DNA from: Candidatus Anaerostipes avistercoris | GTDB lineage: Bacteria > Bacillota > Clostridia > Lachnospirales > Lachnospiraceae | Reading direction: 5' to 3' | NCBI GenBank assembly: GCA_019119895.1 | Contig: DWWD01000007.1 | Span: 1-46,742, forward strand | Length of the DNA: 46,742 bases | Shown: piece by piece, positions 3,878-32,815 of the stretch | How positions within the stretch are numbered: position 1 is the first letter of the stretch | Layout of the letters: every line of letters starts with the position of its first letter | Notes under the pieces: generated by a model | The model's database searches: none | Told to the model about the DNA's origin: nothing | Seen by the model: only the letters and a program-made list of their open reading frames with translations | Made by a program: the position numbers and the translations under genes

Positions 3878-3890
3878 AATATAGTATAAT
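3862..3890 (+). promoter_or_regulatory. promoter of the first EIIA gene
   Basis: TTGTAA (3862-3867), 17-nt spacer, TATAAT (3885-3890). The -35 lies within the palindromic double operator. Confidence 0.7.
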
Positions 3891-3927
3891 GAGGGGGAAA
3901 AATAGTTTCTGGATAAGGAGGATATGT

Positions 3928-4359
3928 ATGGTCGGAATTTTAATCGTTTCCCATGGGGATTTTGCCGCAGGCTTATTAAATGCGGTAGAATTAATTGCAG
4001 GCAGACAGGAAAAAGTAACAACGATAGGACTTCATCATGAAGATGGTGTGGAGGAGTTTGAATCAAAAGTAAATCAGGCACTGAAAGAGCTGGATGAAGG
4101 AGATGGTGTGTTGGCTTTTGTTGATATCCTTGGAGGAACGCCGTCAAATGTTATTTTTCGCAGTCTGGCGAAGAAAAAATTTAAGGCAATCGCAGGAATG
4201 AATATGGCAATGGTTGTTCAGGCAGTCATGATGAGAGATTCCATGGAGGAAGAAGAACTTTACGAGAGCGTTTTGGAAGTGGCGAAACAGCCACCGATTC
4301 TGCTCCATGAAATGTATCAGGATATGATTTTCGAGGAAGCGGAAGAAGACGACATATAA
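3928..4359 (+). CDS. PTS EIIA component, mannose family
   Basis: 143 residues. The N-terminus MVGILIVSHGDFAAGLL carries the phospho-accepting histidine (His9), and VDILGGTPSNV is the second family signature. It accepts phosphate from HPr and passes it to EIIB. The ATG at 3928 follows AAGGAGGATATGT; an earlier in-frame ATG has no such site. It is a single-gene unit, separated from its likely partners EIIB-C-D (6316-8515) by two genes on the other strand, but shares their operator. A bidirectional terminator follows. Confidence 0.9.
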   Translation: MVGILIVSHGDFAAGLLNAVELIAGRQEKVTTIGLHHEDGVEEFESKVNQALKELDEGDGVLAFVDILGGTPSNVIFRSLAKKKFKAIAGMNMAMVVQAVMMRDSMEEEELYESVLEVAKQPPILLHEMYQDMIFEEAEEDDI

Positions 4360-6858: not shown

Positions 6859-7683
6859 ATGCACATATCATTATTTCAGGCGATTTTAATTGGAATCGTA
6901 TATTATCTGGGTAATATAGGAACTCCATGGCTGTCTCTTTTGGGCAGTATCTCTGTAGTTTACAAGCCCCTGGTAGCAGGTACATTGGTAGGATTTATTT
7001 TGGGAGATCCGGTTCAGGGCTGTATCATAGGAGCAGCAATTAATCTTCCGTATGTGGCCTTTATTTCTGCCGGTGGAACAGCGCCGCAGGATCCGGGCCT
7101 TGCGGGAACCGTTGGAACAGCCTGGGCGCTGGCGGCCGGGGTAGATCCTTCAGCGGCAGTTACGATTGCTCTTCCGCTCGGTTTGCTGGGAACGATGATC
7201 TGGGTAGCTCATATGACTCTGGACGTAACATTTGTTCATATGGCAGATAAAGCGGCAGAAGATGGCGACATTGATAAAATCTGTTTCTGGCATGTAGTTC
7301 CGCCGCAGATTCTGATGTTTTGTCTCTGTGTAATACCGGCAACGATCGCGACTTACTTTGGATCAACGGCGGTGCAGGGATTGATCGAACAGCTGACAGG
7401 AAGACCACTGACAGTGCTTCAGGTAATTGGAGGTCTGCTCCCGGCACTGGGTATTGCAATGAATCTGCGGGCTATTTCAAGACCGGGAACGCTGTTATTT
7501 TATATGATAGGCTTCATTCTTGTGCAGTATATGGAACTTCCGGTTATTGCCGTGGCAGTTCTTGGACTTGTGATCGGATACTTCTATACGATGCTGCTGA
7601 ACAACAATCAGACACATCAGCCCGCAACTCCGGATGGAACCCCGTCTGTAACTATGGATGATGACGATGAGGAGGATTTCTGA
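6859..7683 (+). CDS. PTS EIIC component, mannose family
   Basis: 274 residues, an integral membrane subunit with several hydrophobic spans. IGAAINLPYVAFISAGG, LGLLGTMIW and LPALGIAMNLRAI are EIIC signatures. It forms part of the sugar channel with EIID. The C-terminus is a hydrophilic tail ending MDDDDEEDF. The stop codon is separated by one base from the EIID start, so the two are translationally coupled. Confidence 0.93.
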   Translation: MHISLFQAILIGIVYYLGNIGTPWLSLLGSISVVYKPLVAGTLVGFILGDPVQGCIIGAAINLPYVAFISAGGTAPQDPGLAGTVGTAWALAAGVDPSAAVTIALPLGLLGTMIWVAHMTLDVTFVHMADKAAEDGDIDKICFWHVVPPQILMFCLCVIPATIATYFGSTAVQGLIEQLTGRPLTVLQVIGGLLPALGIAMNLRAISRPGTLLFYMIGFILVQYMELPVIAVAVLGLVIGYFYTMLLNNNQTHQPATPDGTPSVTMDDDDEEDF

Positions 7684-7684
7684 T

Positions 7685-8515
7685 ATGGCAGAGAAAAAGT
7701 TAAGCAAAAAAGATGTAGTAAAAGCGTTTTGGAGATGGACTTTCTTTTCTCATGCGAACTATAATTATGAGAGATTGGAAGCAACCGGTCTGGTACATGC
7801 GTTTAAACATGTTATAAAGAAACTATATGGTGATGACGAAGAAGAATATAAAGCCTGTATTAAACGCCATATGCAGTTCTTTAATACAGAGCCTCATATC
7901 GGAGGCGTGATTCCGGGCATTGTTCTGGCTATGGAAGAAGAAAGGGCGAACGGAGCTCCGATTACAGACGATGCCATCAACGGTGTTAAAACAGGATTGA
8001 TGGGACCGTTTGCGGGAATTGGAGATACATTATGGCAGGGAACTTTGACGCCGATTCTTCTGGCGTTTGGTATCTCTCTCGGATCTCAGGGAAATCTTCT
8101 GGGGCCGTTGATCTATACGCTGTTAATGTTCGGAATTATGTGGCCGGTCGCTTATTTCTGCTGGATGAAAGGATACGAATTGGGAAAAGAAGGAATCGAA
8201 AAGATTCTGGGAGGAAATCAGCTGCAGATGCTGATCACAGGTGCTTCGGCTATGGGAGCAATTGTTCTTGGAGCTTTATCCAGTCAGTTCGTGACAGTTC
8301 ATTGTTCCGCGATCATCAAAATCGGTTCCATGGAAATGAATGTTCAGGAAACAGTATTTGATGCGTTATTTTTAGGAATTCTGCCGCTGGCTGTAACACT
8401 TTTGACCCTTTATCTGTTAAAGAACCGAAAGATGAAGGCAACAACGGTTATGGTAATTCTGATTTTGATTGGTTTGATCGGCGGAGGGCTTGGATTCCTT
8501 GGAGCTGCATCATAA
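7685..8515 (+). CDS. PTS EIID component, mannose family
   Basis: 276 residues. FWRWTFFSHANYNYERLEATG, FFNTEPHIGG and KTGLMGPFAGIGDTLWQGT are EIID hallmarks, followed by membrane spans in the C-terminal third. It completes the membrane complex with EIIC. The ATG at 7685 lies one base after the EIIC stop, with GAGGAGG in the EIIC end as its ribosome binding site. An earlier in-frame ATG at 7658 lies inside EIIC. Confidence 0.93.
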   Translation: MAEKKLSKKDVVKAFWRWTFFSHANYNYERLEATGLVHAFKHVIKKLYGDDEEEYKACIKRHMQFFNTEPHIGGVIPGIVLAMEEERANGAPITDDAINGVKTGLMGPFAGIGDTLWQGTLTPILLAFGISLGSQGNLLGPLIYTLLMFGIMWPVAYFCWMKGYELGKEGIEKILGGNQLQMLITGASAMGAIVLGALSSQFVTVHCSAIIKIGSMEMNVQETVFDALFLGILPLAVTLLTLYLLKNRKMKATTVMVILILIGLIGGGLGFLGAAS

Positions 8516-16229: not shown

Positions 16230-18635
16230 ATGAGAGAAAGGATCAGAAAGCTGAAAGCTCACATTCAGAAACTGAATGATGCAGGTGTGAGGCGGACGTT
16301 TCTGTATGAATATGTAGCGGAATCGATGAAAGAAACAGAGGGAGAACCGGTGCAGATTCGAAGAGCTAAAGGATTTGCCTGGGTACTTGATCATGTGAAG
16401 CAGGTGGTGCTGCCGTATGAAACCATAACAGGAAGTATGCTGGGAATGTGTCCGATGTATGAGGATGTGATGACAAAAGAAGAACAGGAACGCTTTGCCG
16501 AGAAGGCAATCTGTAAATATCTGGAAAAGAAAAAAGAAGACAAGACATTTGACGGAAGTATTCATTTTGAGGAAGGGCATGCAAAGAGTTTTGAAGATGA
16601 TTTTACCAGTAAGAAGAGCCGCTGGTCTTTGATGTCGAGAGTTCACCATGATGCCAGCGTGGAATATAAGGATCTGCAGGATGTCATTTCCAGGATACAG
16701 GAAAAATTCGCAGATGAAGACATAGAGCCCTATGAAATCGGACGAGAGCTGGAGAGAGCCTTTAAGATTCCTTATGATCCGGAAATAAAAAAGACCTACA
16801 ATGATCTGCCGTGGTTCCTGGGAAATCATATCAATCTGAATTATGAAAAGATGATAGGAAAAGGATTTGACGCTTTGACAGATGAAATCCGGGAATATCT
16901 GGATCAGACGGCAGATCCGGAGAAAAAAGAATATTATGAAGCCGCTCTGATCGCTGCGAAAGCTGCATCCAGATTTATAAAACGGTACGCAAAGACTCTG
17001 CGGGGGTATCCGCAGGAAAGAGGAATCTCTATTAAAAGAAGGGAAGAACTGCTGGAAATGGCGGATATTTGTGAAAAGATTGCCTATAAACCGGCAGATA
17101 CCTTCCGGGAAGCGGTGCAGTTTACGTGGATGCTTCATATAATGGCAAACATCCAGGGAGGTTCAGCCCTGTCCTTTGCGAGAATCGATCAGTATCTCTA
17201 TCCTTATTATAAAAAGGATCTGGATGAAGGACGGACAAGTCCGGAAGAAGCCAAAGAATTGCTGTCATGTTTGTGGCTGAAAGTGAATGAGCCGAAAATG
17301 CGTACCGTACAGAGTGTAACGCTTGGCGGAATTACGCCGGACGGCAGGGACGGCGCCAATGAGCTGACCGGAATCTGTCTGGAAACAGCAGGGGAAGTCG
17401 GAATGCCGTATCCGAATATCGGGCTGAGGATCAATCCGCTGAATCCATCCTGGCTGTATGAAAAGGCGGTGGAAACTGCCAGGGCAGGATGTGGACAGCC
17501 GCAGCTGCTGAACGATGAAGTGTGGATAGTGAATATGAAGAAGCTGGGATACAGTGAAGAAGATGCCAATAATTACTATAACATGGGATGTGTGGAAATT
17601 ATGGTTCCGGGAAAACAGCCAAACTGGGGCGTAACAGAGGCAATCGCATTTCCTGTATTGATCGAGCAGGTCATGAAAGAATGGAAGAAAGGCAGAAAGA
17701 TAGAAACATTCGATGATTTTATGGCGCTGTATTTTGAGGAAATGGATCAGGTGGTTCTGGGAGATTATCAGGAAGCGGTTCAAAAGAAGAAGATTATGAA
17801 GAATCAGTGCTATGACCCGTACAGTTCACTGCTGATCGACGGATGTCTGGAAAATGGACAGGATATGCTCCAGGGAGGAAGCGAATGCCCGATGCACTGG
17901 TCCGTTTATGCTTATGGAATCGGAACAGCCGCGGACTCCCTCTGCGCTGTGAAAAAATTTGTATTTGATGAAAACAGATTCACGATGGAAGAAATGTACA
18001 ATGCCCTGAGTCATAACTTTGAAGGGTATGAAGAACTGCAGTCTGTGATCCGCAGAGAAAGTCCGGCATTCGGAAACGGTATTAATGAAGTGGATGATAT
18101 CGCGGATCAGGTGCTCCGTCATTTTACAAGGAAGGTTATGGATTTGAATCAGGATTCTGAATCAGATAAATTTGTTTCTACTCTGTTTGGATATTTCTTC
18201 CATATTTATCATGGAGAGATTGCGGAGGCGACTCCGGATGGACGAAAGAAAGGAGAACCTTTCAGCGACAGCATGGGACCGAATCAGGGAAGAGATGTGA
18301 AAGGCCCGACCAGATTTCTGAATTCCGCTCTGCATCTGAATGTGGATGAGGTGACAGGCGGATATGCTCTGAATTTTAAGATCAATCCGTCATTCCTGAG
18401 AGAAGAAAAAGGAAAACAGGCGATCATAAAACTTTTGGAGACCTATATAAAGAAAGGCGGACCGCAGGTACAGATGTACACGACCAATACAGAGGATTTG
18501 AAAGATGCCCAGGTTCATCCGGAGAAACATAGAGATTTGATTGTCCGCGTAGGAGGATACTGCGAGTTTTTTGTAAATCTTGACAAAGTACTGCAGACAG
18601 AAATTATCCACCGGACATTGTATGGAGAAGCGTAG
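16230..18635 (+). CDS. glycyl radical enzyme, YbiW/PflD-like (candidate anhydrohexitol-6-phosphate lyase)
   Basis: 801 residues, full length for the family. The catalytic thiyl motif NMGCVE puts the radical Cys at 454 and a Glu at 456. The C-terminal radical loop RVGGYCEFF puts the glycyl radical at Gly776. The text after GCVE (IMVPGKQPNWG) does not continue GCVEP as I recall for diol dehydratases, choline lyase or HPA decarboxylase. The order with an activase and an FSA-like aldolase mirrors E. coli ybiW-ybiY-fsaA. Ring-opening of a PTS-made 1,5-anhydrohexitol-6-phosphate to 1-deoxyfructose-6-phosphate is the best hypothesis. Oxygen-sensitive. The stop directly abuts the activase ATG. Confidence 0.9.
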   Translation: MRERIRKLKAHIQKLNDAGVRRTFLYEYVAESMKETEGEPVQIRRAKGFAWVLDHVKQVVLPYETITGSMLGMCPMYEDVMTKEEQERFAEKAICKYLEKKKEDKTFDGSIHFEEGHAKSFEDDFTSKKSRWSLMSRVHHDASVEYKDLQDVISRIQEKFADEDIEPYEIGRELERAFKIPYDPEIKKTYNDLPWFLGNHINLNYEKMIGKGFDALTDEIREYLDQTADPEKKEYYEAALIAAKAASRFIKRYAKTLRGYPQERGISIKRREELLEMADICEKIAYKPADTFREAVQFTWMLHIMANIQGGSALSFARIDQYLYPYYKKDLDEGRTSPEEAKELLSCLWLKVNEPKMRTVQSVTLGGITPDGRDGANELTGICLETAGEVGMPYPNIGLRINPLNPSWLYEKAVETARAGCGQPQLLNDEVWIVNMKKLGYSEEDANNYYNMGCVEIMVPGKQPNWGVTEAIAFPVLIEQVMKEWKKGRKIETFDDFMALYFEEMDQVVLGDYQEAVQKKKIMKNQCYDPYSSLLIDGCLENGQDMLQGGSECPMHWSVYAYGIGTAADSLCAVKKFVFDENRFTMEEMYNALSHNFEGYEELQSVIRRESPAFGNGINEVDDIADQVLRHFTRKVMDLNQDSESDKFVSTLFGYFFHIYHGEIAEATPDGRKKGEPFSDSMGPNQGRDVKGPTRFLNSALHLNVDEVTGGYALNFKINPSFLREEKGKQAIIKLLETYIKKGGPQVQMYTTNTEDLKDAQVHPEKHRDLIVRVGGYCEFFVNLDKVLQTEIIHRTLYGEA

Positions 18636-19511
18636 ATGGTGAAAAAAGGACTTGTTTTTGGAATCCAGCATTTTTCAATCCATGACGGAGATGGAATCAG
18701 GAGCAATGTATTTTTGAAGGGCTGTCCTCTCCGGTGTGTATGGTGCCATAACCCGGAAGGGTTAAGGAGAGACATTGATCTTCAGTATATAAAAAACAAC
18801 TGCCGGGGATGCGGACGGTGCGGTTTCATTTTCCGGAATATGGAAAAAGTATACGGAGCAGGAAGAGAACAAAAAGAAACATATGCGGCGGCGTGTCCTT
18901 ATGGAGCGCTGGAAGTGGTGGGAGAATGGATGACAGCGCAGGAAGTTGTGGATGAAGTCATGCAGGATATGGCGTTTTTTGAAGAAAGCGGCGGCGGGAT
19001 AACACTCTCCGGCGGCGAACCGATGATGCAGGCGGATTTTGCCGGGGAAGTGCTGAAAACGGCGAAAGAGAAGGGCTTGTCTACCGCTATGGAAACCAGC
19101 GGCTGTGCGCCGCTGGAGAAATATCTGGGACTGATGCCTTATGTAGATGAGTTTTTGTGGGATTACAAGGAGACGGACGAAGAAAAACACAAAACATTTA
19201 CGGGAGTCAGCAACAGAAGGATACTTGAGAATCTGGAGGAAATCCACAGAAGAGGCGCAGGGATCGTTCTGCGCTGTCCCATCATTCCGGGTCTCAATGA
19301 TACAGAAGAACATTTTCGCGGAATTGCCGAAATCAGCCAGAAACTGGAAGGATTAAAAGGCGTGGAGCTTATGCCGTATCATAAATTCGGCGTGGCGAAA
19401 GACCAGAGAATCGGCCGCGGAAAACAGCGGGAATACAGGGTTCCGACGGAAGAACAGAAAAAAGAATGGGAACACCGGATTACGAAACTGGGCGGAAGGA
19501 TTTTTTCATAA
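18636..19511 (+). CDS. glycyl radical enzyme activating enzyme (radical SAM)
   Basis: 291 residues. FLKGCPLRCVWCHNPEG gives the CX3CX2C radical-SAM cluster (Cys30, 34, 37). LSGGEPMMQ is the SAM-binding GGE motif, and RCPIIPGLND and MPYHKFG are activase signatures. An insert carries Cys56, 59, 62 and 87, enough for one extra 4Fe-4S cluster. Many activases of dehydratase-type glycyl radical enzymes have two. It installs the glycyl radical on the upstream enzyme and starts at the base after that gene's stop, implying coupled translation. Confidence 0.93.
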   Translation: MVKKGLVFGIQHFSIHDGDGIRSNVFLKGCPLRCVWCHNPEGLRRDIDLQYIKNNCRGCGRCGFIFRNMEKVYGAGREQKETYAAACPYGALEVVGEWMTAQEVVDEVMQDMAFFEESGGGITLSGGEPMMQADFAGEVLKTAKEKGLSTAMETSGCAPLEKYLGLMPYVDEFLWDYKETDEEKHKTFTGVSNRRILENLEEIHRRGAGIVLRCPIIPGLNDTEEHFRGIAEISQKLEGLKGVELMPYHKFGVAKDQRIGRGKQREYRVPTEEQKKEWEHRITKLGGRIFS

Positions 19512-19549
19512 AGTACCAATAAACAAATGCAGTAGAAAAGGAGAAGAAT

Positions 19550-20230
19550 ATGCTGATTTTAATTGATGATGCAGATGTAACGAAAATTAAGGAATTGTAT
19601 GCAAAGTACCCATATGACGGGGTAACGACCAATCCCACAATTTTAAGCAAAACAGGGAACCCGGATCCTATGGATCAATTAAAGAAAATACAGAGTGTAA
19701 TGCCGAAAGACGCCATGCTCCATGCACAGGTGCTGTCCACGGAAACAGAAGATATGGTGAGAGAAGCGAGACATATGGTGTCTGTACTGGGAGAAAATAC
19801 TTACATTAAGGTGCCGGTGACTGCAAATGGGCTGAAAGCAATCGATATTCTTGCAAAAGAAGGTATTTCTGCCACAGCAACGGCTGTTTACGGCGTTATG
19901 CCGGCATTTATGGCAGCCAAGGCGGGCGCGAAATTTCTGGCGCCGTATGTAAACCGTCTGGATAATCTGGGATATGACGGGGTGCAGACTGCCAAAGACA
20001 TTCATACGATGATCAAGGCTTCCGGTTATGAAACGGAAGTACTGGGCGCGTCTTTCAAGAATTCCCAGCAGGTGCTTGAAATGGGCAAATTTGGAATCGG
20101 AGCCGTAACAGTAAATCCGGATACGCTGAAGAGTCTTGCGCTGAATCAGGTGGCTGAGAAAGCCGTACAGGACTTTATCCGGGATTTTGAGGGATGCTGC
20201 GGAGAAGGAAAAACAATGCTTGATTTTTAA
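19550..20230 (+). CDS. fructose-6-phosphate aldolase-like enzyme (FSA/TalC family)
   Basis: 226 residues, short transaldolase fold. Asp6, GVTTNPT, HAQV with Gln60, YIKVPVT with Schiff-base Lys87, and APYVNRLD with Tyr133 are visible. Gln and Tyr at these two sites are recalled as the FSA pattern (Gln59, Tyr131 in E. coli FsaA), while true transaldolases carry Glu and Phe. This predicts retro-aldol cleavage giving glyceraldehyde-3-phosphate and hydroxyacetone or dihydroxyacetone. Third gene of the glycyl radical operon. GGAGAAG precedes the ATG. Confidence 0.88.
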   Translation: MLILIDDADVTKIKELYAKYPYDGVTTNPTILSKTGNPDPMDQLKKIQSVMPKDAMLHAQVLSTETEDMVREARHMVSVLGENTYIKVPVTANGLKAIDILAKEGISATATAVYGVMPAFMAAKAGAKFLAPYVNRLDNLGYDGVQTAKDIHTMIKASGYETEVLGASFKNSQQVLEMGKFGIGAVTVNPDTLKSLALNQVAEKAVQDFIRDFEGCCGEGKTMLDF

Positions 20231-20338: not shown

Positions 20339-20382
20339 GAATCATGAACAACCAAAGACACGCACAGAAAGGAAGACGAACA

Positions 20383-20844
20383 GTGAAGTATTACAAACCA
20401 GAGACAGTAAATGAAAATCTGCCGGGGATTATATTACTGAGTCACGGCCCGTTTGCGGTATCGCTTCTGGATACAGCGAAAATGCTTTTTGGAGATGCTG
20501 AGAATCTGGCAGCTTTTTCGTTTGAAGAAGGAGATGACGCGGATCAGTACAGGGAAACTTTTGCGGAGACCATCGAAGCATTTCCGGAAGGAAGCCTGAT
20601 TCTGGTAGATTTATTTGGCGGAACACCATGCAACCAGGTGATGCGGTATGTGCAGGAAAAGGGGCAGCCCCTGGAAGTCGTCGGCGGAATGAATCTGCCG
20701 ATGCTTGTAAATTCCGTGATTGCCAGAGAAGAAAAAAGCGGAAAGGAATTCAGTCTGGACACGGTGGAGAACGGGAAAAACGGAATTTTCCGGGTGGATG
20801 TAGAAGGGTTCCTTCAGGATGATGACGAGGACGAAGACGAATAA
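20383..20844 (+). CDS. PTS EIIA component, mannose family (second system)
   Basis: 153 residues from the GTG at 20383, which follows AAAGGAAG. An in-frame ATG at 20344 lacks a ribosome binding site and sits next to the operator. GIILLSHGPFAVSLL carries the phospho-accepting His21, and VDLFGGTPCNQV is the second EIIA motif. The tail is strongly acidic (DDDEDEDE). It phosphorylates the downstream EIIB. First gene of the second PTS operon. Confidence 0.9.
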   Translation: MKYYKPETVNENLPGIILLSHGPFAVSLLDTAKMLFGDAENLAAFSFEEGDDADQYRETFAETIEAFPEGSLILVDLFGGTPCNQVMRYVQEKGQPLEVVGGMNLPMLVNSVIAREEKSGKEFSLDTVENGKNGIFRVDVEGFLQDDDEDEDE

Positions 20845-20871: not shown

Positions 20872-21372
20872 ATGGCGAAGCAGTTAGCAGTCAGAGTTGA
20901 TGACAGGCTGATCCATGGACAGGTTGTAACACAGTGGGTCAAAGTATTCAAAGCACAGAAGATTGTGGTAATCGATAACAATGTGGCAAAAGATAAGATG
21001 CAGAAAAATATTTTGAAATTTGCCGCTCCGGCAGATATGAAAGTCAGTATTTTTTCTGTGGATAAGGCAGTGGAAGTATGGAATAAAAATCAGTTTGGCA
21101 ATATGAATGTTTTCGTTTTATTTAAAGATGTAAAACAGATTGCCGAGATGAAAGATAAAGGCGTAAAGTTCGATGAAATCACATTGGGAAATATGTCGAT
21201 CACCGGAGACAGAAAACAGATTTATAAATCCACCGGATTTACAAAAGAAGAGGCACAGACATTATTCGACTTAAGGAAAGACGGTGTGAACCTGTTTTTC
21301 CAGACTCAGCCGACAGACCGGAAAGAGTCGATTGATGTTATGAAGAAGGTATTTCCGGATCTTAATGCGTAA
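20872..21372 (+). CDS. PTS EIIB component, mannose family (second system)
   Basis: 166 residues. LAVRVDDRLIHGQVVTQW holds the phospho-accepting His15, and TLGNMSITGDRKQIYKS is the conserved C-terminal half signature. It carries phosphate from EIIA to the substrate. AAAGGAG precedes the ATG, and the gene lies 27 nt after EIIA and 26 nt before the fused EIIC-EIID gene. Confidence 0.93.
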   Translation: MAKQLAVRVDDRLIHGQVVTQWVKVFKAQKIVVIDNNVAKDKMQKNILKFAAPADMKVSIFSVDKAVEVWNKNQFGNMNVFVLFKDVKQIAEMKDKGVKFDEITLGNMSITGDRKQIYKSTGFTKEEAQTLFDLRKDGVNLFFQTQPTDRKESIDVMKKVFPDLNA

Positions 21373-21398
21373 ATATGAAAAACGAAGGAGGATAAAAC

Positions 21399-23042
21399 AT
21401 GACGATCACATTAACGCAGGCTGTTTTGCTGGGACTGTTTTGCGGAATCGCAAAATGCTGTATCCCATACACGCCTGGAGCATTTATGTTTAATACAGTC
21501 ATCTTCAATGCAGTCATCATCGGAGCAGTGCTCGGAGATATGACGCAGGCGATGATCATCGGAGCATCACTGCAGCTGATTTATCTGGGAGTTATTTCAG
21601 CAGGAGGAAACCAGCCGACGGACCCGTGTCTTGCGGCTTACGTGGCAATTCCGGTGGCGATGGCTTCCGGTCTAGATACCAATGCCGCGGTTGCTCTGGC
21701 AGTGCCGGTGGGGCTGCTGGGAGTTCAGATTACGAATATCCTGTATCTGGCAGCAGGATTTTTCGCTCAGAAGGGAGATACCTGTGTAGAGAAGGGAAAT
21801 GCGGCTGGAATGGTAAGATGGTCCATTGTAACCGTTGGAATCATCCGTATGCTCTGCTTTGGAGTGTTGATCGCGGTAGCCTTGTATTTTGGAAGCAGCG
21901 CCCTTCAGGGAGTTCTGGATGATATTCCGGAATTTGTAACAAATGGCCTTTCCGCTATGGGAGCGTGTCTCCCGGCAGTTGGATTTGCGATTATCGCAAA
22001 TCTGATTTCCAAACCGAAATATGTCCCGTTCTTTTTTGCCGGATTTTTCCTGATTCAGTATACGGGCATTGGAACGATTCCGCTGCTGATGATGGGAGCC
22101 TTTATCACATTCCTTTATATTACATTCACAAAGAATGAGTATGCGGGAAATGCGGATTATGAGGGCGAGGACGAAGACGAGGATGAGGATGAAGATGAGG
22201 ACGAAGAAGTCGGCGAAAAGATCCTGACCAGACTGGATGTACTGAAATCTTATGTAATTTACTGGCTTACTGCTGAGGTATGCCACAGCTTCGAAAGAAT
22301 GCAGGCACCGGCTTTCTGTACAGCACTGGTACCGGCTCTTAAGAAATTTTATCCAAATCAGGAAGATAAGCCGAAATATATTGAAGCCCTGAAGAGAAAT
22401 ATGACATTCTTTAATACAGAAGCTCACTGGGGCGGCGGCCCGTGTCTGGGATTGACTCTGGCAATGGAAGAGAAGAAATCAAGAAATTACGAAGCAATCC
22501 CGGGAGAAATGATTTTGAACCTGAAAACAGGTCTTATGGGACCTCTGGCAGGAATTGGTGATACGCTTTCATGGTCTACCTTAATGTATCTGTTTATCGG
22601 ATTGTTCCTGCCGCTGGCACAGAGAGGAAATCCTCTCGGAGGAATCGCTCCGATTGTTTTACTGACAGTTGTATGTTTCGGAGTCGGATATTTCCTGACC
22701 TCCAAATGCTATACGTTCGGTTATTCTTTCGCGGAAAATATGCTGAAATCCGGCCTGGTCAATATGATCATCGCAGCGGCAAGTATTCTGGGATTATTTA
22801 TGATGGGCGGTCTGGCAGCTACCTATGTCACAGTACAGACTCCGCTTAAATTTGCCACAAGTGCTTACAGTACGACACTCCAGTCCATTCTCGATTCTAT
22901 CGCGCCGGGAATTCTTCCGCTGGCAGTTGTTCTTCTTGTATGGGGATATCTGTCAAAAGTAAAACGTAATTATTTCGTGGCAACACTTGGCCTGACGATT
23001 CTCTCTCTGGCTCTGGGATGTCTGGGAGTGATTGGAGGTTAA
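21399..23042 (+). CDS. fused PTS EIIC-EIID membrane protein, mannose family
   Basis: 547 residues. Residues 1 to about 245 are EIIC (SLQLIYLGVISAGGNQP, VGLLGVQI, LPAVGFAI). Residues from about 275 are EIID (VIYWLTAEVCHSFERMQAP, FFNTEAHWGGG, KTGLMGPLAGIGDTLSW, C-terminal spans). Between them, about 254-272, lies a nearly pure Asp/Glu linker. In the first locus the same two proteins are separate genes one base apart, with the EIIC tail also acidic. The frame is continuous through the linker. It should form the whole membrane permease of this system. Confidence 0.92.
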   Translation: MTITLTQAVLLGLFCGIAKCCIPYTPGAFMFNTVIFNAVIIGAVLGDMTQAMIIGASLQLIYLGVISAGGNQPTDPCLAAYVAIPVAMASGLDTNAAVALAVPVGLLGVQITNILYLAAGFFAQKGDTCVEKGNAAGMVRWSIVTVGIIRMLCFGVLIAVALYFGSSALQGVLDDIPEFVTNGLSAMGACLPAVGFAIIANLISKPKYVPFFFAGFFLIQYTGIGTIPLLMMGAFITFLYITFTKNEYAGNADYEGEDEDEDEDEDEDEEVGEKILTRLDVLKSYVIYWLTAEVCHSFERMQAPAFCTALVPALKKFYPNQEDKPKYIEALKRNMTFFNTEAHWGGGPCLGLTLAMEEKKSRNYEAIPGEMILNLKTGLMGPLAGIGDTLSWSTLMYLFIGLFLPLAQRGNPLGGIAPIVLLTVVCFGVGYFLTSKCYTFGYSFAENMLKSGLVNMIIAAASILGLFMMGGLAATYVTVQTPLKFATSAYSTTLQSILDSIAPGILPLAVVLLVWGYLSKVKRNYFVATLGLTILSLALGCLGVIGG

Positions 23043-23128: not shown

Positions 23129-24100
23129 TTGAGGGAAGAGCGTTTTATTATTAAAGTAGTGGAAATGCACTATAAACAGGGTATGTCGCAGCAGGAGATC
23201 GGGAAAAAGCTGAATGTATCGAGGACGACCATATCCAGGACTCTGGCGCAGGCCAAAAGAGAAGGATATGTGCAGATTAAGATTAATTATCCGGAAGGTT
23301 CTGCGATTAATCTCGAGGAACAGCTTGAAAAGAAGTTTCAGCTGAAAGAAGCAGTAATTGCAAGCGCTCAGGATGACAAAGAACGAAAAGAAGAGATTGC
23401 TTTTTATGCCTCAGATTATCTGCTGAGAACCCTGAAAAACCATATGACAGTGGCGCTGACAAGAGGAGTGACTCTGCAGACGATGGTAGAATATCTGGGA
23501 AAAGATGTAAGACTGAAATTTCTGAAGACAGATGACGTTAATGTAGTGCCGCTGATGGCCGCGACCAATATCTCGATATCGGCTGAAAAAAGTTACCGTA
23601 TGGCATATTCCAATTATCTGATCGAGGAAGTGGCCCGGATCATCAACGGAAACAGCTATCAAATGCTGGCGCCTCAGTATGTGACATCACCGGAAGCAAA
23701 AGAAGTTTTCCTGAAAGAAGAAAGTATTAAGGAAGTGTTCGATCTGGCAAAAAAAGCAGACATCGCTGTCGCCGGAATCGGCACTCTGGATCACAATTCA
23801 GCGCTGATCAATGCGGAACTGATCCCTATGGAAGAGTTTGAGCGTCTCCAGAAAAAAGGGGGAACCGGAGAAATTCTTTCCCATGTAGTGGATAAAGATG
23901 GCAATCTGATCGAAGATGAGTTTGAACAGCATTTGATCAGCCTGGATCTGGAAGATTTGAAGAAGATACCAATCCGCGTGGGAGTGGCATATGGAATGGA
24001 TAAAAAAGATGCGATTCTCGGAGTGCTCCGGGGCGGGTACATCAATGTACTCATAACAGATGAGGATGTAGCAAAATATTTAATAGAAGAAACAGAATAA
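23129..24100 (+). CDS. SorC/DeoR-family sugar-responsive regulator
   Basis: 323 residues from a TTG start preceded by AAGGCGGAG. The N-terminal helix-turn-helix covers about 18-40 (MSQQEIGKKLNVSRTTISRTLAQAKREG). The rest is the SorC sugar-binding domain, with ALTRGVTLQTMVEYL, ADIAVAGIGTLD and GGYINVLITDEDVAKYL. These bind sugar phosphates and often act as tetramers. It probably binds the CACTATAGTG sites before the glycyl radical and second PTS operons. It has its own promoter and a terminator after it. Confidence 0.9.
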   Translation: MREERFIIKVVEMHYKQGMSQQEIGKKLNVSRTTISRTLAQAKREGYVQIKINYPEGSAINLEEQLEKKFQLKEAVIASAQDDKERKEEIAFYASDYLLRTLKNHMTVALTRGVTLQTMVEYLGKDVRLKFLKTDDVNVVPLMAATNISISAEKSYRMAYSNYLIEEVARIINGNSYQMLAPQYVTSPEAKEVFLKEESIKEVFDLAKKADIAVAGIGTLDHNSALINAELIPMEEFERLQKKGGTGEILSHVVDKDGNLIEDEFEQHLISLDLEDLKKIPIRVGVAYGMDKKDAILGVLRGGYINVLITDEDVAKYLIEETE

Positions 24101-25372: not shown

Positions 25373-28300
25373 ATGGAAAAGAACAGAATACAGCCAATAA
25401 AATCAGGTACCGGAATGCGTATCAGCTATGCCAGGCAGGATGATGTCCTTGAAGTGCCGAATCTGATCGAAATCCAGAAAGATTCTTATAATTGGTTTCT
25501 AGAGGAAGGATTAGCGGAAGTCTTTGAAGACATTTCTCCGATTGAAGACTACAGCGATCAGTTGAGCTTGGAATTTGTTGACTACCAGCTGTGCAGGGAT
25601 GATATCAAGTACTCAATCGAAGAGTGCAAGGAGAGGGATGCGACATATGCGGCACCTTTGAAGGTGAAGGTAAGGCTTTACAATAAGGAAACAGAAGAAA
25701 TCAAACAGCATGATATTTTTATGGGCGACCTTCCTTTGATGACTGAAACTGGAACATTTATTATCAACGGGGCAGAGCGTGTTATCGTCAGCCAGTTAGT
25801 GCGTTCCCCTGGAATCTATTATGGAATTGCTCATGATAAGATTGGAAAGAAACTGTACTCAGCAACTGTGATTCCGAACAGAGGAGCATGGCTGGAGTAC
25901 GAGACGGATTCCAATGACGTATTTAACGTACGTGTGGACCGTACAAGAAAAGTTCCGATCACTGTGCTGATCCGTGCTCTGGGCATCGGAACCAATGCAG
26001 AAATTAAAGAATTATTTGGAGAAGAGCCAAAGATCCTCGCAAGTATTGAAAAGGATCCTTCTGACAATTATGAAGACGGTCTTCTGGAACTGTATAAGAA
26101 GATCCGTCCGGGAGAACCATTGTCTGTTGACAGCGCACAGAGCCTTGTAAACAGCATGTTCTTCGATCCGCGCAGATATGATCTCGCGAAGGTCGGCCGT
26201 TATAAATTTAATAAAAAATTAGCGCTTAAAAACCGTATCGCAGGATTTGCTCTGGCAGAAGATGTTATTGATACATCAACTGGAGAGATCCTGGCAGAGG
26301 CAGGAACAGTTGTAGATAAGGAACTGGCAGATAAGATTCAGAATGCAGCTGTTCAGAGCGTTGTAATCCAGACAGAGACTGGAAATACAAAAGTATTATC
26401 TAATATGACCGTAAATCTTGCGGAATATGTAGATTTTAATCCGGAAGAAATTGGAGTACATGAAAATGTATTCTATCCGGTGCTTGAAAAGATTCTGGAA
26501 GAAGGATATGAAGGAGAAGAATTAAAACAGGTACTGAAAAAGAATGTACATGAGTTAATTCCAAAACACATTACAAAAGAAGATATCCTGGCTTCCATCA
26601 ACTATAACATTCATCTGGAATACGGAGTTGGAAACGATGATGATATTGACCACCTTGGAAACCGTAGAATCCGTGCGGTAGGAGAACTGCTTCAGAATCA
26701 GTACCGTATCGGCCTTTCCAGACTGGAGAGAGTGGTACGTGAGAGAATGACAACACAGGACATTGAGTCCATCACACCGCAGTCCCTGATCAATATCAAG
26801 CCTGTTACAGCATCTGTGAAGGAATTCTTTGGAAGTTCCCAGCTGTCACAGTTCATGGATCATAACAACCCGCTGTCTGAACTGACACATAAGAGACGTC
26901 TGAATGCACTGGGACCGGGAGGTCTGTCCCGTGACCGTGCCGGATTCGAAGTACGAGACGTTCATTATTCTCATTATGGAAGAATGTGTCCGATCGAGAC
27001 GCCGGAAGGTCCGAACATCGGTCTGATCAACTCACTGGCAACTTATGCCCGTATTAACGAATATGGATTTATCGAGGCGCCATACCGCGTTCTGGATAAA
27101 ACTGATCCGGAAGATCCGGTCGTAACCAATAAAGTTGTATATCTGACAGCAGATGAAGAAGACAATTACGTTGTAGCTCAGGCGAACGAACCGCTGGATG
27201 AAGAAGGACATTTCGTTCATGCTCATGTATCCGGACGATTCAGAGAAGAAACATCCGAATTCGACAAGGCGAGACTCGATCTGATGGACGTTTCTCCAAA
27301 GATGGTATTCTCTGTTGCTACATCTATGATTCCATTCCTGGAGAATGACGATGCGAACCGTGCCCTGATGGGATCTAACATGCAGCGTCAGGCAGTGCCG
27401 CTTCTTTCTACAGAAGCGCCGGTTGTCGGAACAGGTATGGAAGCAAAGGCTGCTTATGATTCCGGTGTCTGCATTACGGCGAAAAACAGCGGTGTGGTAG
27501 AAAGATCTACCAGCACAAAGATTGTCGTAAAGAATGATGACGGCGGAAGAGACGAATATAATGTCATCAAATTTGCCCGAAGCAACCAGGGCAACTGTAT
27601 GAACCAGAGACCGATCGTATTTGTGGGAGACCGTGTGGAAAAAGGAGATATCCTTGCAGACGGAGCTTCTACCTGCAACGGAGAAATGGCTCTTGGTAAA
27701 AATCCTCTGATTGGATTCATGACATGGGAAGGTTATAACTACGAGGACGCGGTACTGTTAAGTGAGCGTCTCGTTCAGGAAGACGTATATACATCTGTTC
27801 ATATTGAAGAATATGAGGCAGAAGCCCGGGATACAAAATTAGGACAGGAAGAAATTACAAGAGATCTGGCAGGATTAAGCGAAGACGCGCTGAAAGATCT
27901 GGATGAAAATGGAATCATCCGTATTGGTGCAGAAGTTCGTGCCGGTGATATTCTGGTCGGTAAAGTAACTCCGAAAGGAGAGACAGAACTGACAGCAGAA
28001 GAAAGACTGCTGCGTGCTATCTTTGGTGAAAAAGCAAGGGAAGTAAGGGATACTTCTCTGAGGGTTCCTCACGGCGCTTATGGTGTTGTAATGGATACCA
28101 AAGTGTTTACAAGGGACAATGGAGATGAACTTCCGCCGGGAGTTAACAAGAGTGTTCGTGTCTATATTGCTCAGAAGAGAAAAATCTCTGTAGGTGATAA
28201 GATGGCCGGACGACATGGTAACAAGGGTGTAATTTCCCGTATTCTTCCGGTTGAAGATATGCCGTATCTGCCGAATGGACGTCCGCTGGATATCGTACTG

Positions 28301-29170
28301 AATCCGCTGGGTGTGCCATCTCGAATGAACATCGGACAGGTACTGGAAATCCATCTTTCCCTGGCTGCAAAAGTTCTGGGATTCAACGTTGCGACACCGG
28401 TATTCAACGGAGCGGACGAGAATGATATCGCAGATACTCTGCAGATGGCAAATGACTACGCCAATACAACATGGGAAGAATTTGAAGCAAAATGGAAAGA
28501 TAAAGTCAATGATGATGTAATGAAGTATCTCTATGACAACAGAGATCATAGAAAAGAATGGGAAGGCGTTCCGATTGATACAACAGGAAAAGTAAGGCTG
28601 CGTGACGGACGTACAGGAGAAGAATTTGACAGCCCTGTAACCATTGGATTCATGCATTATCTGAAACTGCATCATTTGGTAGACGATAAGATCCATGCAC
28701 GTTCTACAGGTCCATACTCTCTCGTAACACAGCAGCCGCTGGGTGGAAAAGCTCAGTTCGGCGGACAGCGTTTTGGAGAGATGGAGGTATGGGCTCTGGA
28801 AGCTTATGGCGCAGCTTATACACTGCAGGAAATCCTGACAGTAAAATCCGATGATGTTGTAGGAAGAGTGAAGACTTATGAAGCTATTATCAAGGGCGAC
28901 AATATCCCTGAACCGGGTGTACCGGAATCCTTCAAAGTACTGCTGAAAGAGTTCCAGTCTCTGGCTCTGGATGTTAAAGTACTGGATGAAAATGCTTCAG
29001 AAGTTGAAATTAAAGAAAATGTAGACGGCGGAGATGTAAATCAGGATCTTGCGCCGATGATTGAGGGCGACAGCGTCTTCAATAATTATGAAGAAAGTGA
29101 GTCCGCGCTGGGTGCCCTGGGATATAAACAGGGAGAACTCTCAGAAGGCGAAGACAATACAATCTTATAG
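25373..29170 (+). CDS. rpoB: DNA-directed RNA polymerase subunit beta
   Basis: 1265 residues. Signatures run in order: [23 protein letters not shown] start, [16 protein letters not shown], the rifampicin region [52 protein letters not shown] and [24 protein letters not shown]. It forms the catalytic core with beta prime. The residue matching E. coli Ser531 is Asn511 (codon 26903-26905). AGAGGTG precedes the ATG at 25373. rpoC begins 39 nt later. Confidence 0.98.
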
Positions 29171-29209
29171 AAATGGATAAGCAATAGATAGTAGGAAGGA
29201 GCAGCCTTA

Positions 29210-32200
29210 ATGATAGAATCAAGCAACGAATATTCAAGCAGCAAAATTTCATTTGATGCAATTAAAATCGGGTTGGCTTCTCCGGAAAAGATCCGAGAGT
29301 GGTCAAGAGGAGAAGTAAAAAAGCCTGAGACGATCAACTATCGAACATTAAAGCCTGAAAAAGACGGACTTTTCTGCGAAAAGATTTTCGGACCTACCAA
29401 GGACTGGGAATGTCATTGCGGAAAGTATAAAAAAGTACGTTATAAAGGCGTTGTCTGTGACCGATGCGGAGTTGAGGTAACAAAATCTAATGTCCGCCGT
29501 GAAAGAATGGGTCATATCGAATTGGCAGCACCGGTTTCTCATATCTGGTATTTCAAAGGAATTCCAAGCCGTATGGGATTAATGCTTGACATTTCACCTA
29601 GGACCCTGGAAAAAGTCCTGTATTTTGCCTGCTATATCGTGCTGGATCAGGGAGACACAGATCTTGCATATAAACAGGTTCTGACAGAGAAAGAATACAG
29701 AGAAGCATATGAAAAATACGGAGATACTTTCCGTGTTGGCATGGGAGCTGAGGCGGTCAAAGAACTGCTTCAGGCAATCGATCTGGAAGCAGAAGCAAAA
29801 CAGCTGAAAGACGAATTCAAGACTGCGACAGGGCAGAAGAGAGCAAGAATCATCAAGAGACTTGAAGTTGTGGAAGCTTTCTGCAACTCTGATAATAAAC
29901 CGGAGTGGATGATCCTGGATGCAATCCCGGTCATCCCGCCGGATATTCGTCCGATGGTACAGTTGGACGGAGGAAGATTTGCAACATCAGACTTAAATGA
30001 CCTGTACAGAAGAATCATCAACCGAAACAATCGTTTGAAACGGCTTCTTGAACTTGGAGCACCGGATATTATCGTGCGCAATGAAAAGAGAATGCTTCAG
30101 GAAGCAGTAGACGCCCTGATCGATAACGGACGAAGAGGCCGTCCGGTCACTGGTCCGGGAAATCGTGCATTAAAATCTCTTTCTGATATGCTGAAAGGTA
30201 AGCAGGGACGTTTCCGTCAGAACCTTCTTGGAAAACGTGTTGACTATTCCGGACGTTCTGTAATCGTCGTAGGACCGGAACTGAAGATTTATCAGTGCGG
30301 TCTGCCAAAAGAAATGGCGATTGAGCTGTTTAAGCCGTTCGTAATGAAAGAACTGGTAGAAAGAAAACTTTCTCATAACATAAAGTCAGCTAAGAAGATG
30401 GTAGAAAAACTGCAGCCGGAAGTATGGGATGTGCTGGAAGATGTTATCAAAGAGCATCCGGTTATGCTGAACCGTGCACCGACACTGCACAGACTTGGTA
30501 TCCAGGCATTTGAGCCAATCCTTGTAGAAGGTAAAGCAATCAAGCTTCATCCTCTGGTATGTACAGCGTACAATGCCGACTTCGATGGAGACCAGATGGC
30601 CGTGCATCTTCCGTTGACAGTAGAAGCACAGGCAGAATGCCGTTTCCTTCTGTTATCTCCAAACAACCTGCTGAAACCGTCTGATGGTGGTCCGGTAGCC
30701 GTTCCTTCTCAGGATATGGTACTTGGTATTTACTATCTGACACTGGAAAAAGAAGGAGACAAAGGAGAAGGAAAATACTTCAAATCCGAAAACGAAGCTT
30801 ACCTTGCTTATGAAAATGGGGTTATTACACTTCATGCCCGTATCAAAGTAAGACGTACCGGAGTCGACAAAGATGGAAATCCGATTTCTCAGATTGTAGA
30901 ATGTACACTGGGACGTATCCTGTTTAATGAAATCATTCTTCAGGATCTTGGATTTGTTGACAGAAGCAAACCGGAAAATGCTCTGGCGCTTGAGATTGAC
31001 TTCCATGTAGGAAAGAAACAGTTAAAACAGATTCTTGACCGCTGCATCAATATTCATGGAGCGACAAAATCTGCGGAAGTCCTGGATGACATCAAAGCAA
31101 TCGGATATAAATATTCTACAAAGGGAGCACTGACAGTATCTATTTCCGATATGACAGTGCCGCCTGAGAAACCTCAGATTCTGGAAGATGCTCAGAAACA
31201 GGCAGAGTTTATTTCAGAACAGTATAAGAGAGGTCTTATGACAGAAGAAGAACGTTATAAGGCTGTTGTAAAAACATGGTTTGATGCCGATGAGCAGCTG
31301 ACAGATAAGCTGATCAATGGACTGGATCGTTTGAATAACATCTTTATGATGGCCGATTCCGGAGCCCGTGGTTCTAATCAGCAGATCAAACAGCTGGCTG
31401 GTATGCGTGGATTGATGGCGGATACATCAGGACGTACGATCGAACTGCCGATCAAGTCAAATTTCCGTGAAGGTCTTGACGTTCTGGAGTACTTTATTTC
31501 TGCTCATGGAGCTCGTAAAGGTCTGTCTGATACAGCCCTGCGTACAGCCGATTCCGGATATCTGACCCGTCGTCTGGTTGACGTATCACAGGATCTGATC
31601 GTTCGTGAACAGGACTGCGCAAAAGATGGAGAAATTCCGGGAATGTATGTGGAAGCGTTTATGGACGGACAGGAAGTCATTGAAAGTCTGGAAGAACGTA
31701 TCAGCGGAAGATATGCCGCAGAGGAAGTAAAAGATCCGAATACAGGAGAAATTATCGTAAAAGCAAACCATATGATCACGCCAAAACGCGCGAAAGCAAT
31801 CGTTGACGCAGGATATACAAGAGTGAAGATTCGTACTATGCTTACATGTAAATCCCCAATGGGCGCATGTGCAAAATGCTATGGATCCAACATGGCAACA
31901 GGTCAGGCAGTACAGGTAGGAGAGGCTGTCGGAATCATCGCGGCTCAGTCTATCGGTGAACCTGGTACACAGCTTACCATGCGTACGTTCCATGCCGGCG
32001 GAGTTGCCGGTGATGATATCACCCAGGGTCTTCCTCGTGTCGAAGAGCTGTTTGAAGCCCGTAAGCCGAAAGGACTGGCAATCATCGCAGAATTTGGCGG
32101 AGAAGTCCAGATCAAGGATACGAAGAAGAAACGTGAAGTTATCATCAGCAACCGCGAGACTGGAGATGTTAAGACATATCTGATTCCTTATGGATCCAGA

Positions 32201-32815
32201 TTGAAAGTGCAGGATGGACAGATCCTGGAAACCGGAGACGAGCTGACAGAAGGTTCCATCAACCCTCATGATCTGCTCCGCATCAAAGGAATCCGTGCAG
32301 TTCAGGATTATATGATCCGTGAAGTCCAGAGAGTATACCGTCTCCAGGGTGTAGATATCAACGATAAGCACGTAGAGGTGATCGTTCGCCAGATGCTGAA
32401 GAAAGTCCGCATTGAAGACGGTGGAGATACAAGTTATCTTCCGGGTGCTATGGTTGATGTTCTGGAATATGAAAAGACGAACAAAGAGATGGAAGAGAAA
32501 GGACTTCAGCCTGCGCAGGCTGAACAGATTATGCTTGGTATTACCAAGGCATCTCTGGCAACAGATTCTTTCTTGTCTGCAGCATCATTCCAGGAGACAA
32601 CAAAGGTACTGACAGACGCAGCAATCAAAGGAAAAGTAGATCCATTGGTAGGATTAAAGGAAAATGTAATCCTTGGTAAACTGATTCCGGCAGGTACCGG
32701 AATGAAACGTTACCGCGATGTCAAGATCAGCACAGATGTAGAAGACTTTACAATCGGTGATGAAATTGACTTCGAAGATGAAATTGATTTTGAAGAATCA
32801 GATCTTCAAAAATAA
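29210..32815 (+). CDS. rpoC: DNA-directed RNA polymerase subunit beta prime
   Basis: 1201 residues. An N-terminal zinc site ([20 protein letters not shown]), the catalytic [12 protein letters not shown] with three Mg-binding Asp, the trigger-loop region ([13 protein letters not shown]) and a second zinc site ([13 protein letters not shown]) are all present. The C-terminus ends in a short acidic repeat ([13 protein letters not shown]). GAAGGAG precedes the ATG. A strong terminator follows, so the operon ends here rather than running into rpsL. Confidence 0.98.

Follow-up and report, generated by a model that had tools for sequence, protein, structure and literature searches.

A mannose-family EIIC-EIID fusion in Anaerostipes with an acidic linker that resembles the tail of its EIIA

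In mannose-family phosphotransferase systems (PTS), EIIB is the partner common to EIIA and EIIC in phosphoryl transfer. The solved structures of Escherichia coli ManYZ (6k1h, 7dyr) show EIIC and EIID as two chains; in the locus reported here they form one. A joined form is already in print as the Clostridium beijerinckii IICD (Cbei 2901/2902/2903), which, as described in Table 2 of PMC3024867, has EIIC and EIID as one unit beside separate IIB and IIA; compared by that description, our locus is alike. The EIIC-EIID fusion itself is therefore not new, and it is recurrent. The locus lies in the window, by which we mean the whole stretch of 46,742 nucleotides of Candidatus Anaerostipes avistercoris that was analysed, and its features are collected in Table 1.

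The fused protein and its operon

The window protein combines EIIC and EIID of the mannose family. A single uninterrupted reading frame encodes it, from an ATG at 21399 to a TAA at 23042, behind a good ribosome site (AAGGAGG, 21385-21391), and the 547 residues proposed for it in the first-pass annotation are confirmed by the frame and by both Pfam domains. The AlphaFold2 model (mean pLDDT 78.9, pTM 0.76, from 23 sequences in the alignment) consists of two folded parts and a disordered segment, residues 250-271, with pLDDT below 50; by Foldseek these are the same two folds as in ManYZ (TMt 0.85 to 6k1h_C and 0.87 to 6k1h_B). With these two domains and an EIIA and an EIIB in the operon, the locus encodes a mannose-family PTS permease, and its one unbroken EIIC-EIID frame places the protein with the known EIICD fusions. 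The linker had been described as about 19 residues, almost all Asp and Glu; it is indeed nearly pure acid, but its core is slightly shorter, at 16 residues.

The operon's EIIA ends in DDDEDEDE, which bears out an earlier remark on its acidic end. DDRLIHGQ is the motif of the EIIB active-site His, and it is present in the EIIB of the operon (VDDRLIHGQVV), aligned to solved EIIBs. Downstream of the EIICD gene lie a sugar-binding regulator and a hydrolase. The glycyl radical enzyme encoded upstream scores 312.8 bits for PflD, 247.7 for YbiW and 347.9 for glycerol dehydratase, below the cut-off of every NCBIfam family listed, and its substrate may therefore differ. Together with the PTS, this enzyme, its activase and the aldolase-like gene fit a predicted anhydrohexitol-type (1,5-AG/1,5-AM) pathway, in which, according to PMC12441222, the PTS step is followed by PflD/YbiW-like cleavage to 1-deoxyfructose-6-phosphate. 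After the operon (25373-32815) stand two adjacent very long frames, of 1265 and 1201 amino acids.

Table 1. Features of the window discussed in the text, with the basis of each assignment or a remark.
Feature	Position	Strand	Basis or remark
First-locus unfused EIIC, tail DDDDEEDF	6859..7683	+	Ends MDDDDEEDF
First-locus unfused EIID	7685..8515	+	Shine-Dalgarno inside EIIC tail
Glycyl radical enzyme, its activase and fructose-6-phosphate-aldolase-like protein, upstream	16230..20230	+	Profile search
EIIA (PF03610), same operon	20344..20844	+	Above Pfam cut-off; later start possible, e.g. GTG near 20383
Acidic EIIA tail DDDEDEDE, matching linker	20818..20841	+	Sequence, tail comparison
EIIB (PF03830), net +6 over domain	20872..21372	+	Above Pfam cut-off; proposed reader of both acidic stretches
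Fused EIIC-EIID, 547 aa	21399..23042	+	Frame, Pfam, AlphaFold2, Foldseek
EIIC (EII-Sor) domain, residues 6-238	21414..22112	+	Pfam 204.7 bits, cut-off 26.3
Acidic linker core, residues 255-270	22161..22208	+	15/16 Asp/Glu, remaining residue Gly
EIID (EIID-AGA) domain, residues 276-544	22224..23030	+	Pfam 271.4 bits, cut-off 25
Sugar-binding (SorC/DeoR-like) regulator	23129..24100	+	Adjoins fusion in most, not all, orthologous loci

Tails of EIIA and EIIC

Among 93 unfused EIICs, tails of about 20 residues or longer were mostly acidic, overlapping the EIID ribosome site or not. We compared the net charge of these tails, and of the linkers of fused proteins, with that of the other subunits. In the 113 systems of the discovery set, EIIC tails or linkers correlated in charge positively with the EIIA tail and negatively with EIIB. 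The held-out set comprised 70 systems from loci fetched later, some of them in already sampled genomes, with profiles made from the discovery loci only; the charge test kept 145 of 202 systems, at less than 85% identity, leaving out incomplete frames and systems with no nearby EIIB.

The relation between EIIC and EIIA was reproduced. Where EIIA is free, its last 15 residues correlated in charge with the EIIC tail or linker, at rho 0.75 for the 54 discovery systems and 0.73 for the 50 held-out ones. Phylogenetic contrasts gave r 0.515 (104 systems, 103 contrasts, 0 of 5000 sign flips) against 0.06 for the EIIA core as control, and independent pairs supported the relation (median p 0.016). Simple charge complementarity with EIIB, strong at first (-0.55 between EIIC tail and EIIB in 75 discovery systems), failed in the 70 held-out systems (rho -0.17, P 0.17) and was intermediate by contrasts (EIIC-EIIB -0.375, P 0.009; EIIA-EIIB -0.24, P 0.077); independent pairs carried no signal for either (median p 0.73 and 0.63), and we rejected it. 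Several systems with acidic tails have neutral or acidic EIIBs. EIIB domain columns 40, 44, 52, 60 and 68 were opposite to the tail in both sets; because effects over all columns replicated weakly (rho 0.17, P 0.10), we claim no docking patch on EIIB.

The two tails also match in their letters, as seen in the 50 unfused systems that have both a free EIIA and an EIIC tail of at least 16 residues. The BLOSUM score of the last eight residues was 8.52 within systems and 1.93 +/- 0.95 when partners were shuffled (0 of 5000), and EIIA and EIIC ended in the same residue at a frequency of 0.52 versus 0.17. Within-system scores in 32 held-out systems averaged 8.47 versus 0.48. The match persisted when charge strata were treated separately and when the set was thinned to 23 systems at 45% identity, and the control comparisons of EIIB with EIIC, EIID with EIIC and EIIA with EIIB ends were not significant. 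Shuffling within genomes (20 systems in nine genomes) gave a weaker result, 504 of 20000 shuffles reaching the observed match and 937 the agreement in last residue.

The last-residue measure was picked after the discovery and held-out tails had been viewed, and only a set of 11 plasmid loci was drawn before. Seven of these have both a long EIIC tail and an EIIA frame, and in six of the seven, close kin among them, the last residue is shared, as in the DDL pair of Enterococcus faecium and the DGI pair of Lacticaseibacillus paracasei; in the seventh the EIIA frame measures only 106 amino acids. The other four comprise two short tails, one locus without EIIA and one fusion.

The resemblance extends to fused proteins. 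In 16 fused systems the linker scored 23.1 against its own EIIA tail and 15.7 +/- 1.6 against shuffled ones (0 of 5000), mainly owing to two clades, the acidic and the basic one (together 7 of the 16); in seven of the other nine, the own EIIA tail matched no better than foreign ones. The EIIA tail of the window reached a local score of 52 with its own linker and a mean of 22.6 with the linkers of the 15 other fused systems. The earlier hint that the acidic stretches of EIIA and EIICD share a role thus gains substance, since their charges co-vary and their C-terminal letters match within systems.

EIIB as candidate reader of the tails

We believe that the acidic linker may be an internal version of the C-terminal tail often borne by unfused EIICs of the family, and that the EIIA tail and the EIIC tail or linker would both be flexible sites at which EIIB docks. 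EIIB would take the phosphoryl group from EIIA and deliver it at EIIC/EIID, and the same weak, fast contact would keep EIIB first by the donor and afterwards by the acceptor. We give this reading, matched docking tails for a shuttling EIIB with the linker as such a tail made internal, a probability of roughly 0.55. From these comparisons we infer three things: EIIB reads the tails, its contact with them is partly electrostatic, and this contact speeds or insulates phosphoryl transfer. Docking sites for EIIB explain the tails best because the tails match each other and because the EIIA tail is absent where EIIB is tied on.

The latter point comes from 11 EIIA-EIIB fusions. The last 25 residues of the segment joining A to B have a median charge of 0, versus -5 for the last 15 residues of free EIIAs (P 2.6e-5), and the segment is mostly neutral or basic (-4 to +6), while the EIIC tails of these systems are still acidic (-4 vs -5, P 0.16). 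Similarly, 38 systems with short-tailed EIICs have neutral EIIA tails, with a median of 0 versus -5 in 50 long-tailed systems (P 2e-10). Among fused EIICDs for which the fetched stretch showed neither EIIA nor EIIB, linker charges are 0, -1, +1 and 0 (L291, L302, L321, L322) and -7 (L330); the EIICD of L040 has a linker of -12 despite having no adjoining EIIA or EIIB.

A charge-reversed version occurs in the same genome as the window. Its second EIICD (L056, G000:C16:46500-51900) is likewise a fusion whose linker resembles the EIIA tail, but here the linker (KKVRRLSVNKK) and the EIIA end (KRRGKLSINKD) are basic and EIIB is at -13, so that all three charges are opposite to those of the window system; related systems in the genus have EIIBs of -9 to -13. 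The same arrangement is found on an Enterococcus raffinosus plasmid (L338), where an EIICD that had been left unannotated has the linker KKVKRLSVNKK, the EIIA tail AKLSINKN and an EIIB of -12.

Among the alternatives, the one that survives best, although we consider it unlikely, is that the linker is an inert acidic spacer that stays soluble and off the membrane, its length altered by slippage in GAN repeats and its match to EIIA a matter of general tail acidity. Among orthologues, linker letters and length do vary freely while acidity stays, with net charges of -11 to -17 within the window's clade, and fusions outside that clade span -7 to +7. A spacer of this kind does not account for a match between unfused EIIA and EIIC that exceeds charge and holds when charge is stratified as well as at the last residue, nor for a basic mirror version with shared letters, nor for A-B fusions devoid of an acidic EIIA tail.

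Somewhat less probable still is a different common reader of the two tails: HPr, a regulator, a protease or a localisation factor, for example, in place of EIIB. The failure of EIIB net charge to track the tails in held-out systems speaks for such a reader; set against it, in the established biochemistry of the PTS it is EIIB with which both EIIA and EIIC interact, and the acidic EIIA tail is gone just where EIIB is fused to EIIA.

It is quite improbable, in our judgement, that the acidic letters are a by-product of selection on DNA, with GA-rich codons carrying the Shine-Dalgarno sequence of the next gene. The Shine-Dalgarno sequence of the first-locus EIID does lie within the EIIC tail, and 36 of the 50 long EIIC tails overlap one under a lenient rule. 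Long EIIC tails stopping 14-20 bases short of EIID are nevertheless equally acidic, and the match holds in the 36 systems in which the EIIA tail is free of such overlap (9.39 versus 2.17, 0 of 5000). Counting against the docking reading, the match was not significant (1111 of 5000) in the seven systems in which neither tail overlaps one. Internal initiation of EIID is possible in two orthologues of the fusion (G002, G007), whose linkers still have an in-frame ATG at their end; the window's own linker contains no in-frame ATG, GTG or TTG. Because acidity persists without overlap in the EIIC tail, and the match without overlap in the EIIA tail, we mostly rejected this origin of the acidity.

Returning to docking by EIIB, the code is not one of charge alone, given that last letters agree as well and that EIIB net charge follows the tails poorly. 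A further step, possible but tentative and based on the tail sequences, is a co-evolving address code in which EIIA and the EIIC tail or EIICD linker would share a short peptide read by their own EIIB; the peptide types would include DDL, DGI, EDI, DF, DDE and the basic RLSVNK type. The window's genome has eight EII-Sor genes, and with several paralogous systems present a soluble EIIB has to pick out the EIIA and the membrane subunits that belong to it. If true, the code would guard paralogous systems in the same cell against cross-phosphorylation; matched tails would offer a simple, testable way for EIIB to pair correctly and a handle for rewiring PTS specificity, for which acidic and charge-reversed systems in one genome provide a ready natural control. 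Nothing on point about matched or docking tails in the PTS was found among the matches listed from the full-text, open-licence literature.

Recurrence and origin of the fusion

A search for the fusion in other genomes, which the first-pass annotation had suggested, found it in relatives within Anaerostipes and in a Hespellia metagenome-assembled genome. Nine fused orthologues from seven other genomes of the genus, 64-91% identical to the window protein, align without a stop, and their carriers include the named isolates A. butyraticus and A. hominis. In Hespellia the frame is likewise open, one fusion having a linker of -19 with an Asp run and a second only -7. Error-prone as GA-rich repeats are, this stop-free set, which includes named isolates, leaves a sequencing or assembly artefact with a practically negligible probability.

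EIIC and EIID had been called normally separate proteins, which holds for most systems, but fusions recur. When 397 genomes were drawn from the family, 13 of 121 EII-Sor matches lay in frames of at least 500 amino acids; for 398 genomes drawn from the phylum the figure was 6 of 82 strong EII-Sor matches. Each count includes two from the window's genome, and no more than six candidates were scored in any genome. A tree of 105 systems (25 fused and 80 unfused, retained from 123 after removal of near-copies) needs at least eight changes of fusion state, and the fused type of A. hominis (L030) is placed among close unfused relatives.

The window's first locus is an unfused system with an acidic EIIC tail and a one-base gap (7684) before the EIID ATG at 7685, just as had been described; its EIIA frame, 3889-4359, ends EEAEEDDI. 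An origin of the fusion from such neighbours, as proposed earlier, fails because the first-locus EIIC sits in a far clade of the tree and because the unfused relative of highest identity found, L331 of Ligilactobacillus acidipiscis (44%, itself absent from the tree), is short-tailed (TFTSDSSKAAKEA), without an acidic run. The fusion may well have arisen by loss of a stop between some other EIIC and EIID neighbours, and the ATG at the linker end in the two orthologues noted above may be a relic of an EIID start. One relative (G010; L041, C1:591000-599000) has three EIICD copies, one of which is broken within EIID, not in the linker, and was left out of the tree.
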